Assembly: GCF_000332075.2 (NCBI RefSeq)
Contig: NZ_ALVU02000001.1
Location: 4,104,324-4,168,323, forward strand
Direction: 5' to 3'
Origin: Synechocystis sp. PCC 7509
GTDB lineage: Bacteria > Cyanobacteriota > Cyanobacteriia > Cyanobacteriales > Chroococcidiopsidaceae
Length of the DNA stretch: 64,000 bases
How positions within the stretch are numbered: position 1 is the first letter of the stretch; each line of letters begins with the position of its first letter. Shown piece after piece: positions 5,599 through 15,639 of the stretch. The notes under the pieces are model-generated. The model searched no databases. It was not told the origin of the DNA and saw only the letters and a program-made list of their open reading frames with translations. A program made the translations under genes and the position numbers.

Positions 5599-7941
5599 AT
5601 GCCGCAGTATTTTGGACAGTTAGGGACAGTTGAACAACCTTGGTCAATTCTTGGCGCTGTAGAAACTATCAAAAAAGAGCGCACTTCTATACAATTACAC
5701 TTTGATAGTGCTTGCCTAATTATTACAATACTTGCAGCAAACTTAATTCGCGTCCGCCTAGCACCAAAAAGCGACTTTATGCCCCGTCGGGATTGGGCTG
5801 TAACAATAGACGATAGCGAATTTGCAATTGTACCGTTCGATCTCGTCGAAAATGACGAAGTTATCGAAATTACTACCGAATTAATTAAAGTTAGAGTTAA
5901 CAAAAATCCTTGTCAGGTTAGTTGTTATGACTTGTGCGATCGCCCTTTTGCTCAAGATATTACTCCTATGGGCTGGCGCTCTGGCGGTGTAGCAGCATGG
6001 AAAAAAATTGAAGAAAACGAACATTTTTATGGTTTTGGCGAACGTACAGGCTTATTAGACAAGCTCTCCGAGCGTAAAACCAACTGGACAGTAGACGCTT
6101 TGGATTACGGATCGCTTAGTGATGAGATGTACCAGGCAATTCCATTTTTTATAGCATTGCGTCCTGAAGTTGCTTACGGAATCTTTTTTAATACTACTTT
6201 TTGGAGTCAGTTTGATATCGGTGCAGAACAACCGGGAGTTTTGCGAATGGAAACGCGGGGACAAGAACTAGACTATTACATTATTTATGGCGCAGAACCC
6301 GCCCAAATTTTAAACACCTACACTCAACTTACAGGCAGAATGCCAATGCCGCCAAAATGGGCGCTAGGCTATCATCAATGTCGCTGGAGTTACGAATCGG
6401 AAACAGTGGTACGCCAAATAGCTAAAGAGTTTCGCGATCGCCGCATACCTTGCGATGTAATCCATCTCGATATCGACTATATGAACGGCTATCGCGTGTT
6501 TACCTGGAGTCCCAAACGCTTCCCTAATCCCGCCCAATTAGTCGGAGATTTGGCAAAAGATGGCTTTAAAACCGTAACAATTATCGATCCAGGGGTTAAA
6601 TACGAACCCGAAGCCGATTATCACGTATTTGATAGCGGAGTAGCTAAAGATTACTTTGTCCGCAAAGCTGACGGACAATTATTTCACGGTTATGTCTGGC
6701 CCGAAAAGTCTGTTTTTCCCGATTTTATGCGCTCCGATGTGCGTCAGTGGTGGGGTGACTTGCACCAAAACCTTACTAATATCGGCGTAGCAGGAATTTG
6801 GAACGATATGAACGAACCTACCATAAGCGATCGCCCGTTTTCTGAACCAGGAGAAAAAATCTATTTTCCTTTAGATACACCCCAAGGATCAAAAGACATT
6901 GCAACACACGCCGAAGTCCATAACCTGTACGGTTTAAACATGGCTAAAGCAAGCTATGAAGGTTTAGAAAAACACCGTCCTAATGAGAGAAGTTTTGTAT
7001 TAACGAGATCGGGCTATGCTGGGGTGCAACGTTGGTCATCGGTATGGATGGGTGATAATCAATCATTGTGGGAACACTTAGAGATGTCTTTACCCATGTT
7101 GTGCAATATGGGCTTATCGGGTGTTGCTTTTGTCGGCTGCGATATTGGCGGTTTTGCGGGAAATGCAACGGCGGAATTATTTGCGCGGTGGATGCAGGTA
7201 GGAATGCTTTACCCCTTTATGCGGGGACATTCGGCGCTGTCTACATCTCAACACGAACCTTGGGCTTTTGGACTTCGCACTGAAAACATTTGCCGCACAT
7301 ACATCAATCTGCGTTACCAATTACTACCCTATTTCTACACGCTATTTTGGCAAGCCGCAACCACAGGAGCGCCGATTTTACGCCCACTTTTGTACCATTT
7401 TCCCAATGATTCAAAAACCTACGAACTATACGATCAAGTCATGCTAGGCGATTCTATTATGGCTGCTCCCATTTATCGCCCAGGAGTCGAACATCGGGCG
7501 GTTTATTTGCCCCAAGGTACTTGGTTTGATTGGTGGACGGGGGAAGTTTACAAAGGAGAATGTCATATTTTGGCACACGCACCTTTAGAAACAATGCCTT
7601 TGTATGTCTGCGCGGGGGCAATTATTCCCCTGCAACCAGTGATGCAGTATGTAGATGAAAAACCCCTTGATTCTTTAACCTTACGGATTTATCCAGGAAA
7701 CGGGGAATTTACACTTTATGAAGACGATGGACATAGTTTTGCTTATAAAAACGGCGAATTTGCAACTACAACTATTCGCGTATACGAAGAAGAACAGCAA
7801 TATATAGTAGAAATAAGCGATCGCGTTGGCAATTGGCAACCCACAACACGAGAAATAATTGTTGAATTAGTAGGTATTGGTCAAGAAAGTTTTATTGATA
7901 ATGGTACAGCGCGGAGTTTGCGCTTTGATAGAGTGAAATAG
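5599..7941 (+). CDS. Alpha-glucosidase, glycoside hydrolase family 31
   Basis: 780 residues, normal for GH31: N-terminal beta-sandwich, central TIM barrel and C-terminal beta domains. The catalytic nucleophile is D403 in GIWNDMNEP and the acid/base is D486 in WMGDNQS; MRGHSALSTSQHEPWAFG is also a family signature. It hydrolyses terminal alpha-linked glucose from oligosaccharides. No signal peptide is seen, which suggests an intracellular role in storage-glucan breakdown together with the GH65 and debranching enzymes further on. The stop is followed at once by a HIP1 site. A deleted second copy of the 3' end lies at 11901-12094. Confidence 0.95.
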   Translation: MPQYFGQLGTVEQPWSILGAVETIKKERTSIQLHFDSACLIITILAANLIRVRLAPKSDFMPRRDWAVTIDDSEFAIVPFDLVENDEVIEITTELIKVRVNKNPCQVSCYDLCDRPFAQDITPMGWRSGGVAAWKKIEENEHFYGFGERTGLLDKLSERKTNWTVDALDYGSLSDEMYQAIPFFIALRPEVAYGIFFNTTFWSQFDIGAEQPGVLRMETRGQELDYYIIYGAEPAQILNTYTQLTGRMPMPPKWALGYHQCRWSYESETVVRQIAKEFRDRRIPCDVIHLDIDYMNGYRVFTWSPKRFPNPAQLVGDLAKDGFKTVTIIDPGVKYEPEADYHVFDSGVAKDYFVRKADGQLFHGYVWPEKSVFPDFMRSDVRQWWGDLHQNLTNIGVAGIWNDMNEPTISDRPFSEPGEKIYFPLDTPQGSKDIATHAEVHNLYGLNMAKASYEGLEKHRPNERSFVLTRSGYAGVQRWSSVWMGDNQSLWEHLEMSLPMLCNMGLSGVAFVGCDIGGFAGNATAELFARWMQVGMLYPFMRGHSALSTSQHEPWAFGLRTENICRTYINLRYQLLPYFYTLFWQAATTGAPILRPLLYHFPNDSKTYELYDQVMLGDSIMAAPIYRPGVEHRAVYLPQGTWFDWWTGEVYKGECHILAHAPLETMPLYVCAGAIIPLQPVMQYVDEKPLDSLTLRIYPGNGEFTLYEDDGHSFAYKNGEFATTTIRVYEEEQQYIVEISDRVGNWQPTTREIIVELVGIGQESFIDNGTARSLRFDRVK

Positions 7942-7979
7942 GCGATCGCTTTGTCTATTGCAAATTAGTTTAAAAAAGT

Positions 7980-8759
7980 ATGGATCAAGCTTCTATGAAG
8001 GATGTCCCTAAAAATATGCGAAGAACAGGGATGCTCCTTTTTCGAGATGCATTTATAGAATCATTACACGGCGAAAAGCTAATGTGTGTTGTACATCTAG
8101 CTCATGCAGCAGAAATTTTGCTGAAAGCTCGCATAGCGCAAGAACATCCGCTCTTAATTTTTTCAAAACTGCCTAAGCCTAATGATGATACTCTGACACT
8201 GATTGATTTGCTAGAAAGCGGTCGCACTCTATCTTATGAAGAATTACCTGACCAGTTATGGGCAACTACAGGAATTAAAATTGAGCCAGATATTCTTACT
8301 CAACACCGCAAATTTGGTAAGCTAAGAAATCAAATCGTTCACTTTTCGATGGCAAATGCTAACACGCTAGACGTGTTAGCAATACGTTATTCACTGGAAG
8401 TGTTAGATCCTTTAGTAGAAAGCTTTTGGGGGAAGTCAGTAATTGATTTCATAACAAAAGATCCCCATGATTATTACGCTATGTTTGTAGGCTCTGGACA
8501 ACTCGAAGACTTAATCAGGAAAGTCTCTACAATAGATCAACGGTTAAGACGATTGTTGGGGGATGCGAGTAAAGAAGCTTGGGAGAGACTGAATACACAT
8601 CTTGAAGAAAGCAAAATGTTGGATAGAGCTAGAACTGATGAAGATTGGGAAGCTTTGGCAGTTTGGGAGGAATCACAGGCTGATCCTATTAAAGAGGAAC
8701 AGTACAAACAGCAAATGGAAGAAATGGTTAGCTGGCAAATTTTTCTTAATTCTTTTTAG
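7980..8759 (+). CDS. HEPN-like protein of unknown function
   Basis: 259 residues, not confidently recognised. An alpha-helical N-terminal part contains VVHLAHAAEILLKARI and then RNQIVH at 116-121, an R-x4-H motif like the active site of HEPN ribonucleases. The C-terminal half is acidic and helical (EDWEALAVWEESQADP) with no known motif. HEPN proteins usually act in toxin-antitoxin or defence systems, which fits the neighbourhood, but no partner nucleotidyltransferase (MNT) is adjacent. It begins 38 bases after the GH31 stop, at the left edge of the toxin-antitoxin island. The fold is an inference from the motif and helicity. Confidence 0.55.
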   Translation: MDQASMKDVPKNMRRTGMLLFRDAFIESLHGEKLMCVVHLAHAAEILLKARIAQEHPLLIFSKLPKPNDDTLTLIDLLESGRTLSYEELPDQLWATTGIKIEPDILTQHRKFGKLRNQIVHFSMANANTLDVLAIRYSLEVLDPLVESFWGKSVIDFITKDPHDYYAMFVGSGQLEDLIRKVSTIDQRLRRLLGDASKEAWERLNTHLEESKMLDRARTDEDWEALAVWEESQADPIKEEQYKQQMEEMVSWQIFLNSF

Positions 8760-9072
8760 TTAGCTCACCAAATTTAATGTGTATCTTGAACAGTAGCTTG
8801 TCAATGTGGAACGGTAAAACAGTACATAACTGTAATATAGGACAAAAGTTATTGTCAGCGCTGCTAAAGTTTTCTACCGTAACTAATTTGCTCTGTCAAT
8901 TTACATACTTTCTGGGATGAAGCGCGATCGCATTTATTCCCCAAATACACAGGAATGCGATCGCACTGGCTGAATCTACAGGAATAAGCGATCGCTCCCA
9001 ACTTCACCAAACTCAGGTTAAGCTAGGAAAGCTTACAATCATTAGAAAATAAACTCGCACTCGTTTAGACTA
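8760..9072. repeat. Intergenic region with a HIP1-bounded repeat array (3 sites)
   Basis: HIP1 octamers at 8924, 8957 and 8988 bound two units. The first has the A-type core (ATTTATTCC...ACAGGAAT) and the second a B-variant (ACTGGCTGAATC...AGGAATAA). The same units recur at 13.3, 13.8, 14.6 and 15.35 kb. There is no gene in the rest of this gap. Confidence 0.8.
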
Positions 9073-9291
9073 ATGACATTACAAGAACTGCAAAAACAAG
9101 CACTGCAATTACCAACTAGCGATCGCTGGCAATTGGTTCAAACTCTTTTAGAGTCTTTAAAGCGCGACAGCCTAACAGCAAAACATGGAAATTTGTCTCG
9201 GCTTCGAGGGATTGCCAAAGGTTCGGGAACAGTGGATAACTCTAATTCTAAAGAGGATTATACTAGCTACCTAATTGAGAAGTATCAGTAA
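9073..9291 (+). CDS. Putative type II antitoxin, partner of the PIN toxin
   Basis: A 72-residue protein with a helical start (TLQELQKQALQLPTSDRWQLVQTLLESL) and a flexible C-terminal tail ending DYTSYLIEKY, the layout of small cyanobacterial antitoxins that precede PIN-domain toxins. The TAATG junction overlaps the toxin start by one base, so translation is probably coupled. Expected to bind and neutralise the toxin and repress the pair. The family assignment rests on size, layout and partner rather than a strong motif. Confidence 0.7.
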   Translation: MTLQELQKQALQLPTSDRWQLVQTLLESLKRDSLTAKHGNLSRLRGIAKGSGTVDNSNSKEDYTSYLIEKYQ

Positions 9292-9701
9292 TGCGTGTTT
9301 TGATTGATACTAATATAGTTCTTGACTTCCTTCAAGAAAGAGAACCGTTTGTAGAAAATGCAACGAGATTATTTGAGCTTTTTGATACTGGACAGATTGA
9401 AGGATTTATCGCAGCAACAACGATTACCAACATCTATTATATTGTTTGTAAAACAGCAGGAGCAGTTGTAGCTTCTGATGCGATCGCCCAAATCCTTGCA
9501 GATTTAAACATTTGTCCGGTGGATCGAGATGTATTAGAACAAGCCATTGCCTTAAACTTTCGTGATTTCGAGGATGCCGTGCAGTACGTTTGTGGGCTTG
9601 TGCATAATGTAGATGCGATCGTCACTCGTGATACCTCTGGGTTTATCGGTGGAGAGATTCCCATTTTATTACCTGAAGCTCTTAACGCTAGATTTGATTG
9701 A
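9291..9701 (+). CDS. PIN-domain ribonuclease toxin (VapC-like)
   Basis: 136 residues with the acidic PIN pattern: the first Asp in MRVLIDTNIVLDFL (D6), a middle DFEDAVQYVCG, and DAIVTRD near the end, which together coordinate Mg2+ in RNA-cleaving VapC relatives. It follows its antitoxin with a one-base overlap. A B-type HIP1 repeat unit begins 36 bases downstream and reaches into the convergent DUF5615 gene. Confidence 0.88.
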   Translation: MRVLIDTNIVLDFLQEREPFVENATRLFELFDTGQIEGFIAATTITNIYYIVCKTAGAVVASDAIAQILADLNICPVDRDVLEQAIALNFRDFEDAVQYVCGLVHNVDAIVTRDTSGFIGGEIPILLPEALNARFD

Positions 9702-9737
9702 ACGAAGCCTATAACTACACAAATACCTAGAAGAAGT

Positions 9738-9775
9738 GCGATCGCGCCTGCTAATTTGAATAAATAGGCGATCGC
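9738..9775. repeat. Single B-type HIP1-bounded repeat unit
   Basis: Two GCGATCGC sites 30 bases apart (9738 and 9768) enclose a CCTGCTAATTTGAATAAATAG-type core, nearly identical to units at 13861-13884, 13924-13947, 14606-14629 and 15357-15380. The unit contributes the last codons and stop of the minus-strand gene ending at 9751. Confidence 0.85.
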
Positions 9776-10065
9776 TTTGTTAGTGTAAGTTGGATCAAAA
9801 GTAATCGTCGCAGGTTGCGATTGGTGACATTGCCGCAAGTTAACCATAAAATCTGAGGAGGTGTTCCCAGACGACATACTAAATCTATAAAATCGCTGTC
9901 CTTTGTCATAATTACAGCATTGTCGGCTCGTGCTGCTTCAAAAATTTCGATATCTTGAGCATCCCTAAGTGCTAAATCTACCAATGCGGCAACTTCTAAA
10001 TCAAAAGTGTCTGACAACCAAACTGCTAAAGTTGGAGGCAGTTGAGCATCAACCCAAATTTTCAC
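9751..10065 (-). CDS. DUF5615 PIN-like toxin
   Basis: 104 residues beginning MKIWVDAQLPPTLAVWL, with the N-terminal Asp and the MTKDSDFIDL motif of the DUF5615 (Mut7-C/PIN-like) family, which pairs with DUF433 antitoxins. It overlaps the DUF433 gene by 4 bases. The C-terminal tail TLTKRSPIYSN and the stop codon are read from the B-type HIP1 repeat, so the native C-terminus has apparently been replaced or extended by repeat insertion. Compared with its paralogue at 14219-14551, the core is intact. Confidence 0.82.
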   Translation of the reverse strand: MKIWVDAQLPPTLAVWLSDTFDLEVAALVDLALRDAQDIEIFEAARADNAVIMTKDSDFIDLVCRLGTPPQILWLTCGNVTNRNLRRLLLIQLTLTKRSPIYSN

Positions 10066-10295
10066 GCCGTTAGTCTAGGAAAATCAGTGCATCGTGCTGC
10101 AAATATCAAGCTTGCTTGAATATCTGCAAGTTCTAAATCGGGGAAGTCTTCTAAAATTTCGCTAACACTAACGTTTTCCGCTAACATTTCCAAAATGTCG
10201 GTAACTCGAATTCGCATCCCTCGAATGCAGGGACGACCGCCACACTGACCAGGTGTTTGAGTAATGCGAGTGAGTAATCCTGTTGTTGAGAGCAT
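10062..10295 (-). CDS. DUF433 antitoxin
   Basis: I chose the ATG at 10295, giving 77 residues, exactly the length of the paralogue at 13989; an in-frame ATG at 10346 would add 17 residues that the paralogue lacks. The family hallmark GGRPCIRGMRIRV is followed by a helical ILEMLAENVSVSEILEDFPDL. DUF433 proteins are winged-helix-like antitoxins encoded just before DUF5615 toxins, as here (4-base overlap). Confidence 0.85.
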   Translation of the reverse strand: MLSTTGLLTRITQTPGQCGGRPCIRGMRIRVTDILEMLAENVSVSEILEDFPDLELADIQASLIFAARCTDFPRLTA

Positions 10296-10890
10296 GAGGG
10301 GGTGACTAAAAGTTACTTTATCTATTTTACGAGAAATTATGAGCATATATAGCTTTCTGAGTAGCGGGCGATCGCACTTTTAATAATTGCAAGTTAACTT
10401 AAAAGCGATCGCCATACAACAAAACCTTGGTTAAAGTAAAATTGGCAAATTGTTTGTGGAGAGAAGTTATAGTTGAACTCTAAAATCATCTGTCTCGGTT
10501 CAGGAGTTAGTAAGTAAGACCGCTTACAAATTAGCTATTTGTTTGGAACTTTGGCAACTCCTTTTTCGTACATTTTACTTATTGGAAATATTTACTATTG
10601 GCTCAAAAAGCGCCGTATTCCTTTCCGTCAATCTGTCTTGAATCGGTGGGTAATTACGTCAAGTATGGGGATTCAAAAAGCTAGGTACAGAGACGCAGAC
10701 CAGCAAAACTATACCATCTAGTTTTAGAAACATCTTAAGCTTACGCGCTCAAAGGCAATCCTAAATATTTAATGAGTAGTAATTGTTTGCTACCAGTGAG
10801 CTTAATTTGTTGACAATTTGCTGTCTAATTAAGTCAACATACAAAGCTATTGTTAATAAATACTAATATTATGCCCCTTGGTAGAATCCA
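10296..10890. other. 595-bp stretch without a supported gene
   Basis: Two HIP1 sites occur near 10369 and 10404. A TTG-started hydrophobic 60-codon frame at 10539-10721 (FSYILLIGNIYYWLKKRRIPF) has no ribosome binding site and no recognised family, and I do not call it. TTGACA at 10809 followed by a GTCAAC gives a small inverted repeat before the next gene. Confidence 0.4.
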
Positions 10891-11889
10891 ATGATGTGGT
10901 TTGAAACATTAACTGGTTTTCCTGAAAATTCCCCCCAGCAAGTCCGCGAAAATATATCTGTTGACGGGAAGACATTAAAATCTCATGTCAACGAGAAAGT
11001 TATAGTTTGCGGTGAACTGGAAACCCCAACTTTGGCAGAACTGAGAGAACGGGTAAATTTGAGTGGGCATCAAGGCGGAAAAATCTCGCTACGAGAAGTA
11101 GTTGCAAATGTCCAGCATTTGCATACAAACGAATCAAATGCTAATTCACTTTTTCAGGTGGCTTCCCAGTTCAATCTGCTGGAAATGGTATCTTCGAGTG
11201 TAACGCCTGAGCATGGTGTAGGAATTTATGAGCGCGATCGCACCCAAGGACCAGCGTGCGCGATCGCCGCAGGTGCAGGAACAATTTTTCGTAACTACTT
11301 TGCGATCGTTAATGGGCAAATCGGTCAATCTGCAACAAATCAAATCGATTGCCTTGCGGATATCGGAGTAGCATTAGGAAACTCTCTGAGCCGTCTTTGG
11401 AAAATGAGAAACGGTTATACTTTGGCATCGCATAACGGTTTAATTGAGATTGCGAATCGACTTAGCGCCTCAAGTGAAAATGAACTCGATCGATTGCGGC
11501 AGTTGCTACGCATTGGTATTCAGTGGAATACACAAGTGACGCTTAACGATACCAATCACCTAGTTTCACAGGTTTATTGCTCCGCCTTACCCGTTGCTTA
11601 TTCTCCTCATGCTTCGGCTCTATGGGCAGAATTTGCACAGTTAATTTTAGAGGCATCTTATGAAGCAACAATTTGTACAGCAATCTTGAATTCCCTCCGC
11701 AATGGAAACAATAGATTATTTCTGACACTTCTTGGCGGCGGAGCCTTCGGTAACAAACCCGATTGGATTTTTGCAGGAATGCGACGTGCCTTGAATCTCT
11801 ACAAATATGCCGATCTTGATATCGCAATCGTAAGTTATGGCTCATCCAATCAATCTGTCCGACAACTTATCAATGAATTAATGAAATAG
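10891..11889 (+). CDS. Conserved protein of unknown function with a macrodomain-like glycine loop
   Basis: 332 residues, full length, no signal peptide or membrane segment. Residues 88-136 hold a strikingly conserved-looking block: FQVASQFNLLEM, TPEHGVGIYERDRTQGPACA, then a YF-rich segment. Near the end, LLGGGAFGN (281-288, with GGGAFGN at 282-288) resembles the substrate loop of macrodomains and poly(ADP-ribose) glycohydrolase-type folds, followed by WIFAGMRRALNLYKYADLDIAIVSYG. On that basis I suspect an ADP-ribose or nucleotide-binding fold, but this is an inference from one loop and the overall pattern. Adjacent ATGs at 10891 and 10894 are both possible starts. It has no partner gene. Confidence 0.6.
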   Translation: MMWFETLTGFPENSPQQVRENISVDGKTLKSHVNEKVIVCGELETPTLAELRERVNLSGHQGGKISLREVVANVQHLHTNESNANSLFQVASQFNLLEMVSSSVTPEHGVGIYERDRTQGPACAIAAGAGTIFRNYFAIVNGQIGQSATNQIDCLADIGVALGNSLSRLWKMRNGYTLASHNGLIEIANRLSASSENELDRLRQLLRIGIQWNTQVTLNDTNHLVSQVYCSALPVAYSPHASALWAEFAQLILEASYEATICTAILNSLRNGNNRLFLTLLGGGAFGNKPDWIFAGMRRALNLYKYADLDIAIVSYGSSNQSVRQLINELMK

Positions 11890-11895
11890 GTAAAA

Positions 11896-12094
11896 GGCGA
11901 TCGCACTGAAAACATTTGCCACACATACATCAATCTGCGTTACCAATTACTACCCTATTTCTACACGCTATTTTGGCAAGCTGCGACAACGGGAAATAAT
12001 TGTTGATTTAGTAGGTATTGGTCAAGAAAGTTTTATTTATTGATGATGGTACAGCGCAGAGTTTGGGCTTTGATAGAGTTAAATAGGCGATCGC
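11896..12094 (+). pseudogene. Deleted duplicate of the 3' end of the GH31 gene
   Basis: Bases 11901-11985 match 7275-7360 of the GH31 gene with a few substitutions, and 11985-12094 match 7843-7949, including the stop codon and the HIP1 site behind it. About 480 bases are missing between the halves, and a TTTA insertion shifts the frame. The left end of the copy sits exactly in a HIP1 site (11897-11904) and the right end in another, so the fragment is bounded by HIP1 on both sides. It cannot code for a working enzyme. Confidence 0.92.
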
Positions 12095-12202
12095 CCCAAC
12101 ACTTCAAACTCTGTTTTAACTATATAGGATAGATAATAGATGTAGTCTCCTAGCAGCCACCAAGAGAGTCAAAACTCTTTTACCTAATTGGACAATAGCG
12201 TA

Positions 12203-12517
12203 ATGACAACTGTAACCGAGTCAGATATCAAAGAATTAAAAGACTTGATTATTGCTTTTAGAGAAGACACCAACAACCGATTTACCGCCATTGATAATAA
12301 ATTTACCTCTATCGATAATCGTCTCACTGTGATTGAAACTCGTTTAGATGAGTGGCGAACCTCAATTGCTAAAATCCCCGATTTAGCTGAAAAGGTGGGA
12401 GAGCTAAAAAACTGGAGGCAAATCGGGTTATTTTTTGTGACTGCTTTTATTAGTTCTATATTTAGCGGTACAATCGGCGGGGTAATTGGTTGGCTACTTA
12501 GAAGTGGAAAAGCTTGA
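12203..12517 (+). CDS. Small coiled-coil protein with C-terminal membrane segment
   Basis: The ATG at 12203 gives 104 residues; a TTG at 12188 would add five. A helical heptad-like region (RFTAIDNKFTSIDNRLTVIETRL) predicts a coiled coil, and the C-terminus holds one hydrophobic segment (GLFFVTAFISSIFSGTIGGV) ending in WLLRSGKA. This layout is common in small cyanobacterial and phage-associated proteins of unknown role. It stands alone between the GH31 remnant and the GIY-YIG fusion. Confidence 0.7.
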   Translation: MTTVTESDIKELKDLIIAFREDTNNRFTAIDNKFTSIDNRLTVIETRLDEWRTSIAKIPDLAEKVGELKNWRQIGLFFVTAFISSIFSGTIGGVIGWLLRSGKA

Positions 12518-12619
12518 TTGGCAAGGTAAGCCAAGGAATCTTTAATACAGTAGGCGATCGCACTTGCAACAGTATTTATCAGTTTAAAATTGAAAAATAT
12601 CCCAACCCAACGGCAACCT

Positions 12620-13204
12620 ATGCTAAAAACCATCGCCGGAACTTACCTTAATGGGCAAATTCATCTTACCGAGCTACCACAAGATGTTAACGAATCCCAA
12701 GTTCTTGTTACCTTTCTCGATCCTAGCAAAATCGATCCCGCCAAACTACACCAATTAATAGATAAGTTGGAAACAATTGCAGGTATTGGGCAGGGTTTTG
12801 ACGAACTAGAACGCGGTCAAACTCGTCCCATTTTAGACTTTATTCAAGAAATGCAGTTCGTTGAGATTGAGGGCAGTGTAGACCCAACAAAGCCTCTAAT
12901 CTATTTATGGGAGATTCTGAATTCTCATGGAGATGTTTACTATCGGTATGTTGGCAAAGCCTCTCGCGGCGCGAAGCGACCACGCAAGCACTATCGCCGT
13001 AACGTCAATAATTTGCTGCTTGGAAAGCCTTACCGCAGGAAAAAACCGAATGAGTTCCGACCTGTACATCGTGAGCTAGCAGAGGCTGTTAAGAGCGGTC
13101 AAACGATCCGCCTTTCATTTATTTGCAATGTATCACCACACGAAAATATTGATTTCATTGAACGCCAGTGGCATCAGCACTATGAATGTAGCAAGTACAT
13201 TTAA
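12620..13204 (+). CDS. Antitoxin-like N-terminus fused to a GIY-YIG-like nuclease domain
   Basis: The ATG at 12620 gives 194 residues (an upstream TTG at 12590 is less likely). Residues 1-80 start MLKTIAGTYLNGQIHLTELP and look like the small cyanobacterial antitoxins that usually end about there. Residues 95-194 look like a GIY-YIG endonuclease: YLWEIL as the first strand, YRYVGKAS as the YIG strand, basic RPRKHYRRN, and ERQWHQHYE near the end supplying the metal-binding Glu. Such a fusion is unusual and may be a self-contained toxin-antitoxin polypeptide or an antitoxin that gained a nuclease. Domain calls are from motif reading. Confidence 0.65.
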   Translation: MLKTIAGTYLNGQIHLTELPQDVNESQVLVTFLDPSKIDPAKLHQLIDKLETIAGIGQGFDELERGQTRPILDFIQEMQFVEIEGSVDPTKPLIYLWEILNSHGDVYYRYVGKASRGAKRPRKHYRRNVNNLLLGKPYRRKKPNEFRPVHRELAEAVKSGQTIRLSFICNVSPHENIDFIERQWHQHYECSKYI

Positions 13205-13409
13205 GTTAATAATTAAATTAAACCAAATGACTTCGGCTTAATTTATACGTTGAACTATATATTTTCGGGTCGAAAGCGATCGCATTTATTCCACAGATAT
13301 ACAGGAATGCGATCGTGCGATTTGCATGAATGGGCGAAGTCTTTTACTTCCAAGGATGCCAAAATCAAGTTTAGATAAGTAACAAGTGCGATCGCTAACT
13401 TTCATCTCT
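13205..13409. repeat. Degenerate HIP1 repeat array
   Basis: An A-type unit runs from the HIP1 site at 13276 to a degraded one (GCGATCGT) at 13309; the following B-like stretch has decayed, and another HIP1 site lies at 13388. Elsewhere the interval is featureless. Confidence 0.7.
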
Positions 13410-13511
13410 ATGAGAAGCCCAAACCATGCAACTTTAACGGGCTTGACTCCAGAGGAAATTAGCAACTTGCTGACTCCAACTATCGCCAATCCATCCCAGC
13501 AATTGTCCTGA
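13410..13511 (+). CDS. Possible 33-residue protein upstream of the 87-aa gene
   Basis: An ATG frame reads MRSPNHATLTGLTPEEI and ends PSQQLS, 13 bases before the next gene on the same strand. Composition (TPEEISNLL) looks protein-like, and no frameshift joins it to the next gene. It could equally be the tail of a decayed gene cut by the repeat array at 13276-13395. Weakly supported. Confidence 0.3.
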   Translation: MRSPNHATLTGLTPEEISNLLTPTIANPSQQLS

Positions 13512-13524
13512 TTGGAGCAATTTC

Positions 13525-13788
13525 ATGAGCTATCCGAGAGTATTTGCAGATTTCCATAATGCTGACAACACAGGACAGTTGCGGCTCAATTGTATTGGTA
13601 CAATTGAAGACTTAGCACGTCAACAAATTAAATTACAGCTAGGTCAGTTATTGACACTCTACAGCGAAGAATTAGAAGTTGACGGAGTAGTTCAATACTC
13701 TGAATTAGAGAAGGTATGGGTGGCGCGGATTGATTGGGAGCGAATTCGTGGAGTTGAAAGTAGTTATGTCAGTCAAGTAAGCTTGTAG
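13525..13788 (+). CDS. Hypothetical protein, 87 aa
   Basis: Begins MSYPRVFADFHNADNTGQLRLNCIGT and continues with a beta-rich, acidic sequence (YSEELEVDGVVQYSELEKVWVARIDW). I recognise no family. The ATG start is clear, although no strong ribosome binding site is visible. The size and composition suggest a small globular cyanobacterial protein. It lies between two HIP1 repeat arrays. Confidence 0.6.
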   Translation: MSYPRVFADFHNADNTGQLRLNCIGTIEDLARQQIKLQLGQLLTLYSEELEVDGVVQYSELEKVWVARIDWERIRGVESSYVSQVSL

Positions 13789-13818
13789 GCGCGTAGATAA
13801 CACAATAAAACTGTTACA

Positions 13819-13954
13819 GCGATCGCATTTATTCCACAGTTACAAAAGGAAGTGCGATCGCGCTTGCTAATTTGGATGAATAGGCGATCGCATTTATGCC
13901 ACAGATATAAAGAAATGCGATCGCGCCTGCTATTTTGAATGAATAGGCGATCGC
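13819..13954. repeat. HIP1-bounded A-B-A-B repeat array (5 sites)
   Basis: Five GCGATCGC sites at 13819, 13854, 13884, 13917 and 13947 give spacings of 35, 30, 33 and 30 bases. Odd intervals carry the A core (ATTTATTCCACAG...AAAT) and even ones the B core (CTTGCTAATTTGGATGAATAG or a close relative). This is the clearest copy of the composite repeat. Confidence 0.92.
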
Positions 13955-13988
13955 TATTTTTTCATCTAATACTTTCTACAGGCTGGAT

Positions 13989-14222
13989 ATGATCAACTAC
14001 CGAAACCACATCACAATCGAACCCAATAAACGCGGTGGTAAGCCTTGTGTACGTGGCTTGCGAATTACAGTTTATGAAGTGCTTGAGTATCTAGCTTCCG
14101 AAATGACCGAAGCAGAAATCCTCGATGATTTCCCCGATTTGACGCGAGAAGATTTGAAAGCCTGCATTGCTTATGCTGCTGACCGCGAACGTCGGTTTAT
14201 GACTCCTCCATTATCTGCGTGA
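13989..14222 (+). CDS. DUF433 antitoxin (second copy)
   Basis: 77 residues with GGKPCVRGLRITVYEVLEYL, the family hallmark, and EILDDFPDLTREDLKACIAYAADRE. It precedes and overlaps a DUF5615 gene by 4 bases (GTGA), the same order as the pair at 10.1 kb but on the other strand. The two copies are clearly homologous but diverged, so they are old paralogues or separate acquisitions rather than a recent duplication. Confidence 0.87.
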   Translation: MINYRNHITIEPNKRGGKPCVRGLRITVYEVLEYLASEMTEAEILDDFPDLTREDLKACIAYAADRERRFMTPPLSA

Positions 14223-14551
14223 AGTTACTTTTTGATGAAAACCTGTCGCCCAAGTTACCAAACCTTTTGAGGGATCTTTTTCCTAATTCGCTCCACGTTC
14301 GAGATGTAGGTATGAAATCAACTATCGATCCTGTAGTTTGGGATTATGCAAAAGATAATAATTTGATGATTGTCTCAAAAGACGCGGATATGCACGACTT
14401 GAGTTTAGTGTTTGGCAATCCACCAAAAGTTATTTGGCTGAGGATGGGAAACTGTTCGACATTGCAAGTTGAAAGTTTGCTGCGGCGAAATTTTAACGCG
14501 ATCGCATTATTTTATGAAGATGAGAATTTATCACTGCTGGCTTTGTCGTAA
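14219..14551 (+). CDS. DUF5615 PIN-like toxin (second copy)
   Basis: 110 residues from a GTG start overlapping the antitoxin stop. MKLLFDENLSPKLPNLL gives the N-terminal Asp-Glu of the family, and MIVSKDADMHDLSL the second acidic motif. Predicted PIN-like nuclease toxin neutralised by the upstream DUF433 protein. A HIP1 site lies inside its 3' end (14498-14505), and the next repeat array begins about 50 bases after the stop. Confidence 0.85.
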   Translation: MKLLFDENLSPKLPNLLRDLFPNSLHVRDVGMKSTIDPVVWDYAKDNNLMIVSKDADMHDLSLVFGNPPKVIWLRMGNCSTLQVESLLRRNFNAIALFYEDENLSLLALS

Positions 14552-14568
14552 TGTACCGATGGCTTTGG

Positions 14569-14700
14569 CTCTTTTTACTTTCACAGATACACAGCAATGC
14601 GATCGCGCCTGCTATTTTGGATGAATGGGCGATCGCATTAATTCCACAGATATACAGGAATGCGATCGCACTGGCTAACATTACAGGAATAAGCGATCTC
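14569..14700. repeat. HIP1-bounded repeat array (3 intact sites, 1 degraded)
   Basis: HIP1 sites at 14599, 14629 and 14662, with a degraded GCGATCTC at 14693. The order is partial A, B, A, then the B-variant (ACTGGCTAACATT...GGAATAA) also seen at 8965-8987. An open frame at 14551-14748 is only a translation of this array. Confidence 0.88.
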
Positions 14701-14778
14701 ACTGGTACATTGCTTGGCTCTAGAAAAACAGACAGCGTGTTAAATTAATTGGGTAAGGGCGGTGAGGCATTGCCAGAA

Positions 14779-14985
14779 ATGATTTTTAGTGATGTAGTTG
14801 AGGCGATTAAAAGTCTTTCCATTGATGAAAAGCATGAAATTCAACTATTGTTGAAGCAATACCTACGTGAAGAACGCCGTGATGAGATATATAAAAACTT
14901 CAGCGCGGCAAAGAAAGAACAGCAAAAAGGTGAACTAAAATTTTCTGCCGATATCACAGAACTTAAACAACTGCTAGAGGAGTAA
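14779..14985 (+). CDS. Putative antitoxin of a RelE-like pair
   Basis: The ATG at 14779 gives 68 residues: MIFSDVVEAIKSLSIDEKHE, then LLLKQYLREERRDEIYKNF and a basic/acidic tail ending in ELKQLLEE. Helical, about the right size for a type II antitoxin, and two bases ahead of a RelE-type toxin gene. An upstream TTG (14749) is possible but lies in repeat-derived sequence. The antitoxin role is inferred from its partner. Confidence 0.72.
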   Translation: MIFSDVVEAIKSLSIDEKHEIQLLLKQYLREERRDEIYKNFSAAKKEQQKGELKFSADITELKQLLEE

Positions 14986-14987
14986 GC

Positions 14988-15254
14988 GTGGAAGTTAGTT
15001 TTAGTTCTTCCTTCAAACGTGCTTTCAAAAAACGTATTACAGGCAACGCAGATAAGACAGCAAGATTTTGGCAAAAGTTGGAACAATTTACTATAGACCC
15101 CTTCGCTCCCAGCTTAAAAACCCACAAGCTATCTGGTAGTCTCAAAGAATTTTGGAGTTTTAGCGTAGATTACGAGGAAAGAGTGTTGTTTTATTTTACA
15201 GAAGATGATAAGGCTGTGTTTGTAGACATTGGTAGCCATGACGAGGTGTACTGA
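14988..15254 (+). CDS. RelE/ParE-superfamily toxin (mRNA interferase-like)
   Basis: 88 residues from a GTG start two bases after the antitoxin stop. The pattern SSSFKRAFKK, KTARFWQKLEQF, LKTHKLSGSLKEFWSFSVDYEERVLFYF, then VFVDIGSHDEVY fits the RelE/YafQ/HigB fold: a conserved basic and aromatic centre and a C-terminal aromatic residue used in ribosome-dependent mRNA cleavage. I cannot separate an mRNA interferase from a gyrase-directed ParE by eye. Confidence 0.85.
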   Translation: MEVSFSSSFKRAFKKRITGNADKTARFWQKLEQFTIDPFAPSLKTHKLSGSLKEFWSFSVDYEERVLFYFTEDDKAVFVDIGSHDEVY

Positions 15255-15639
15255 ACGCTTTGCTCCTTAGAAACCGTCGCTAAACAGCATTAATCTAGAT
15301 ATTTTCTGGGTAAAGCGCTAAGTTTTTTAGTCCACAGATATACAGGAGTGCGATCGCACTTGTTAATTTGAATGAATAGGCGATCGCATTTATTCCACAG
15401 ATATACAGGAGTGCGATCGCACTTTTTAGTCAATGATTTATTAGATACAACGAAAGTTAAAGCGGTAAAGTATCTATTTGTCCTAAACCTATCAAAAATA
15501 GCGATTTGTTTAACACTTTAAAAGGGATAATACGACCAAAAGTTGCTCAATCTAGTTTTTGTTACACTCCATAAATTAGTTTTAGCAATTAGTCAATTAG
15601 CTGGAAATATTACTAACTGACTAATTAAACCAGTATTTA
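15255..15639. repeat. Intergenic region with HIP1 repeat array (3 sites)
   Basis: HIP1 sites at 15350, 15380 and 15413 enclose a B and an A unit, preceded by a half A unit (TCCACAGATATACAGGAGT). The rest, to 15639, is AT-rich and shows no gene. It marks the right edge of the accessory island. Confidence 0.85.

Follow-up and report, generated by a model that had tools for sequence, protein, structure and literature searches.

HIP1 (GCGATCGC) ranks among the words most over-represented in the genomes of cyanobacteria, where its function is debated. Integrating islands, for their part, leave displaced gene ends in the genomes they enter, as in att duplication of the tRNA type. The closest described cases of rearrangement at HIP1 come from Synechococcus. 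A deletion at the smt (metallothionein) locus of Synechococcus PCC 6301 led to the discovery of HIP1, for which a role in promoting rearrangement was proposed (Gupta 1993, cited in PMC6331805). As cited in PMC4390886, excision at HIP1 was assayed in 1997 (Robinson), plasmid recombination was linked to HIP1 in 1998 (Akiyama), and the SDR5 small dispersed repeats were found to be inserted inside HIP1 (Elhai 2008). Since deletion, excision and recombination were all reported in 1993-1998, the idea that HIP1 serves as a junction is, judging from these citations, both old and debated. A first-pass annotation of the DNA studied here had called such a role not established for HIP1, and these earlier reports speak against that wording.

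The window analysed here is a stretch of 64,000 nucleotides from an Aliterella-type cyanobacterium (genome G000), and all positions below are window positions unless a genome is named. It carries on the forward strand an intact gene of 780 aa (open reading frame, 5599-7941) for a putative GH31-type glycoside hydrolase, a family name taken from the first-pass annotation, which was made from the sequence alone. Full-length orthologues with 64-92% protein identity are present in most of the relatives that have the gene. Repeat search and direct alignment confirmed that the 3′ end of this gene occurs twice, about 4 kb apart and in direct orientation: the stretch 7275-7949 (forward strand), which ends with the HIP1 that follows the stop codon (7942-7949), has a degenerate partial copy at 11896-12094. 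The left block of the copy (11896-11994, forward strand) is 95% identical to its parent over 94 bases (11901-11994 versus 7275-7368). Its right block (11995-12094, forward strand) is 93-94% identical to 7854-7949, with 94% for 11989-12040 versus 7848-7899 and 93% for 12036-12094 versus 7891-7949. The offset between parent and copy changes from -4626 to -4141, a net internal loss of 485 bp that refines the earlier estimate of about 480. The junction of this deletion, ACGGGA (11989-11994, forward strand), located from the overlap of the two repeats and the change of offset, shows an imperfect 6-bp microhomology to both sides in the parent, ACAGGA and ACGAGA, with one mismatch each. A further 4-bp shift, the reported 4-base insertion, turned out in the alignment to be a tandem TTTA TTTA at about 12032-12039 (forward strand). 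One HIP1 lies at each edge of the copy, as had been noticed, at 11897-11904 and 12087-12094, and homology stops at both. The copy contains no open frame in any of the reading frames and is a non-coding remnant. Apart from flank repeats of 32-35 bp, the only match to the fragment elsewhere in its genome is the parent gene.

Comparison with relatives, including the close relative G004 (about 88%; a match to a MAG named Chroococcus sp. CMT-3BRIN-NPC107), G001 and A. atlantica CENA595 (G003), supplied the island-free genome that the first-pass annotation had proposed to look for. Downstream of GH31, G004 has a HIP1, a spacer of about 25-33 bp, a second HIP1 and then the gene that lies at 12554 in the window. 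The entire accretion 7950-12553 (4.6 kb, delimited by comparison with G004 contig C75 and annotated with Pfam) is missing there, and so is the copy. The native sequence downstream of GH31 is GCGATCGCTTTRTCTATTGCAAA, common to contig C438 of G001 and, more weakly, to contig C570. The intact gene of the window is followed by GCGATCGCTTTGTCTATTGCAAA; at the equivalent position C438 reads GCGATCGCTTTATCTATTGCAAA and C570 carries a weaker version. In contrast, the distal copy is followed by CCCAACACTTCAAACTCTG, a short HIP1-linked repeat that is present at other sites too. The native flank has been kept by the proximal gene, and the distal copy is therefore the newcomer. The earlier idea that the two gene ends frame an insertion (7950-11896) is not supported, because native GCGATCGCTTTRTCTATTGCAAA adjoins the intact gene instead of the distal copy. 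From the flanking sequences, the copy is most probably a secondary duplication within the accretion, and entry of the island would not have displaced the gene end. Displacement of the gene end by island integration, tried as a candidate, is disfavoured because of where the native flank lies.

GH31 ends have also been rearranged in G001. At its native GH31 locus on C438 (L034:1860-2076) the gene body is deleted: the opening bases of the gene run directly into the final 120, and a HIP1 marks the point of fusion. A second GH31 tail, on C570, adjoins a putative Crp-type regulator (named from its sequence), its two edges lying beyond HIP1 sites by about 16 and 20 bp. The assembly of G001 is fragmented and 65% complete, and its two GH31 tails could reflect mixed strains. 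Neither an empty-site allele nor an accretion with or without the copy was found in other members of the genus, Aliterella.

The accretion contains a 259-aa gene of no assigned family, a KIX_2-like/PIN pair, a DUF5615/DUF433 pair, a 332-aa gene, the GH31 fragment and a 109-aa gene. Two of its modules sit on separate contigs in A. atlantica, which indicates a mosaic. Pfam identified no integrase, transposase or recombinase among ten tested proteins encoded between 7980 and 14551. The 332-aa protein (10891-11889) has no Pfam match, and of the other genomes in the family (19 in all) A. atlantica alone shares it (77%). Short repeats bounded by HIP1, GCGATCGCATTTATTCCACAGATATACAGGAATGCGATCGC and GCGATCGCGCCTGCTAATTTGAATGAATAGGCGATCGC, occur in one orientation at 8924-8995, 9731-9781, 13276-13954, 14572-14698 and 15323-15449. 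Their consensus type is confined in G000 to approximately 4,097-4,120 kb, which looks like local amplification.

The two edges of the copy differ in their relation to the parent gene. The HIP1 of the right edge is also present in the parent (7942-7949), whereas the parent position that matches the left edge now reads GGACTTCGC, which is not HIP1. In most cyanobacterial orthologues, as in the copy, this position reads GGCGATCGC; GGACTTCGC is found in the window gene and in G004. Thus, of the two ends of the donor segment, the right one has HIP1 and the left one has it only in other relatives. The left-edge HIP1 (11897-11904) falls where GH31 ancestrally carried a HIP1, in the codons for FGDRT, which most relatives have kept and the window gene has lost. 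The site in the window gene still has TCGC in common with HIP1. The left HIP1 may have been inherited from a donor allele that still carried it, or may have come from a target end joined over TCGC. The age of the duplication is indicated by one codon, which is ACA, a derived state, in both the copy and the window gene, CAA in G004 and mostly GAA in outgroups. Because the copy and the window gene have the derived ACA in common, the duplication post-dates the split from G004, and the copy is a sister of the window gene, not a resident allele of greater age.

HIP1 is the commonest 8-mer of this genome. The window contains 91 HIP1 sites against 0.57 expected from shuffles, and in an 800-kb sample HIP1 is the top 8-mer, with one site per 741 bp. 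Random placements of a 199-bp segment have HIP1 at both edges with a frequency of 0.00015 (0.015%) over the whole window and 0.0011 (0.11%) within the HIP1-rich region 7942-15430. HIP1 at both edges of the copy thus exceeds chance, at about 1e-4 to 1e-3, a post hoc figure that is suggestive.

The first-pass annotation had further supposed that HIP1 sites are generally used as junctions for recombination or break repair. A self-comparison of 800 kb yielded 60 low-copy duplicate pairs, in which HIP1 lies at the matched ends of both copies at 4 of 120 ends, mostly the GH31 case itself and HIP1-rich intergenic repeats. With so few HIP1 ends in the 800 kb, HIP1-bounded duplications were set aside as a general feature. 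In a second survey, 1.6 Mb of G000 was compared with aligned sequence that totalled about 345 kb and came almost entirely from G004. Among 62 indels of at least 18 bp, HIP1 was at the junction of the short allele in 6, versus 0.7 expected. However, alignment breaks that are complex or not indels, used as a control, show a similar excess (3/44 versus 0.4 expected). Because these breaks are similarly enriched, the excess at indels can be explained by alignment bias or by conservation of HIP1; we make no claim of enrichment at indels, and any enrichment of HIP1 at junctions must be tested against alignment bias. Of the 32 indels larger than 40 bp, only 2 carry HIP1 on each side, namely the GH31 accretion and an island of 3.1 kb (locus L165, G000:C1:3928141-3931250). 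The coincidence of HIP1 with the edges of the copy is real, and the survey of the same genome gives no proof of a general HIP1 role. Overall, the deleted duplicate, its HIP1 edges and the island-free relative have stood up, in contrast to the framing of an insertion and the general junction role.

The 3.1-kb insertion has GCTAWGGCGCGATCGC on both sides, with one such HIP1 site in G004. As read from its sequence, it apparently contains a DUF5615/DUF433-like pair and a DUF262-like gene. G000 and G004 also differ at G000:C1:3657822 and L031:8573-8605 by inserts of 24-26 bp within HIP1, which are SDR5-like.

With a probability of roughly 55%, we consider the fragment to be a local duplication of the GH31 end, anchored by microhomology between HIP1 words, that has since decayed; it looks like an ordinary scar of repair or duplication. 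In its favour are the end of homology at HIP1 on both sides, the rank of HIP1 as the top 8-mer, the ancestral HIP1 at the left donor site with its retained TCGC, the derived ACA codon, the absence of the copy from G004, the native flank beside the parent gene and the imperfect microhomology at the deletion junction. The source segment would have extended from the ancestral or vestigial HIP1 in GH31 (about 7271) to the HIP1 just past the stop codon (7942). Its insertion as a copy, or its capture, may have taken place at a HIP1 some 4 kb downstream that lay between two accreted modules of genes, where the empty site would have carried a single HIP1 (GTAAAAGGCGATCGCCCCAACACTTC). As the likely process we infer repair anchored on microhomology, or template switching, from one HIP1 word to another, followed by loss of 485 bp from the copy, gain of TTTA through slippage, and drift. 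As the window gene now lacks the left HIP1, pairing of HIP1 with HIP1 has to be assumed for an older allele, unless the target supplied the HIP1, and this counts against the explanation. The failure to find an empty-site allele and the C570 tail of G001, with its edges off HIP1, also count against this explanation. A tentative and rather unlikely alternative is an ordinary illegitimate duplication with random breakpoints, in which the edge HIP1 sites reflect local density, with one HIP1 behind the stop codon and many in intergenic DNA, or the left one arose by a later point mutation. The 15 HIP1 sites in 7942-12561 would favour random breakpoints, as would the rarity of HIP1 at the ends of self-duplications (4 of 120), the alignment breaks that match the excess at indel edges without being indels, and again the C570 tail. 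However, only 0.00015 to 0.0011 of random placements have HIP1 at both edges, and the left edge coincides precisely with the gene's ancestral HIP1.

It is improbable that incoming DNA carrying a GH31 3′ end and the island recombined into GH31, restored the gene and left the old tail distally. The direct orientation, the involvement of a gene end and a foreign-looking block of 4 kb between the copies, missing in G004, are what such an event would produce. Yet the native flank is at the proximal gene, as in C438, and not at the distal copy; none of the ten tested proteins is an integrase or transposase by Pfam; the accretion is a mosaic with modules on separate A. atlantica contigs; and the copy, instead of representing an older resident allele, is the sister of the window gene. 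Even less probable is cutting and joining specific to HIP1, whereby a hypothetical nuclease or recombinase with GCGATCGC or CGATCG as its target would free a HIP1-to-HIP1 fragment of GH31 that is then joined into a cut HIP1. This would account for HIP1 at both edges and for a donor site at the ancestral HIP1, and it is in line with the independent 3.1-kb island, with HIP1 at both edges and a single HIP1 at the empty site in G004, and with HIP1-linked recombination reported in Synechococcus (cited in PMC4390886). On the other hand, HIP1 is at both edges of only 2 of 32 large indels, one of them the GH31 case, and the parent gene is now without the left HIP1. In a broader and likewise improbable reading, HIP1 in Aliterella would be an exchange point for inserting and shuffling HIP1-to-HIP1 cassettes (gene pieces, toxin-antitoxin modules, short repeats) in accretion hotspots, from which the GH31 fragment and the island at G000:C1:3928141 would have arisen independently. 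If HIP1 sites do act as points of exchange for DNA cassettes, comparison of genomes would reveal it, and both cases are consistent with this. As a microhomology-anchored duplication, the preferred reading, the GH31 copy is a well-documented scar and not evidence for a new function of HIP1.

Among known systems, the displaced gene ends of the att type resemble the GH31 fragment in being partial, in direct orientation and beside foreign-looking genes. Unlike them, the GH31 case has no integrase in view and keeps the native flank at the intact gene instead of the fragment. With SDR5, as described in the work cited in PMC4390886, it has in common a foreign sequence bounded by HIP1 halves or whole HIP1. 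However, SDR5 is a short multi-copy module within one HIP1, and the GH31 fragment, a single-copy gene remnant, falls outside that definition. The work on smt and on excision, as far as it is cited in PMC6331805 and PMC4390886, concerned deletion or excision, whereas the GH31 case is a duplicated gene end between HIP1 words, known from sequence alone. What these assays and the GH31 copy have in common is a rearrangement junction at HIP1 in a cyanobacterium.
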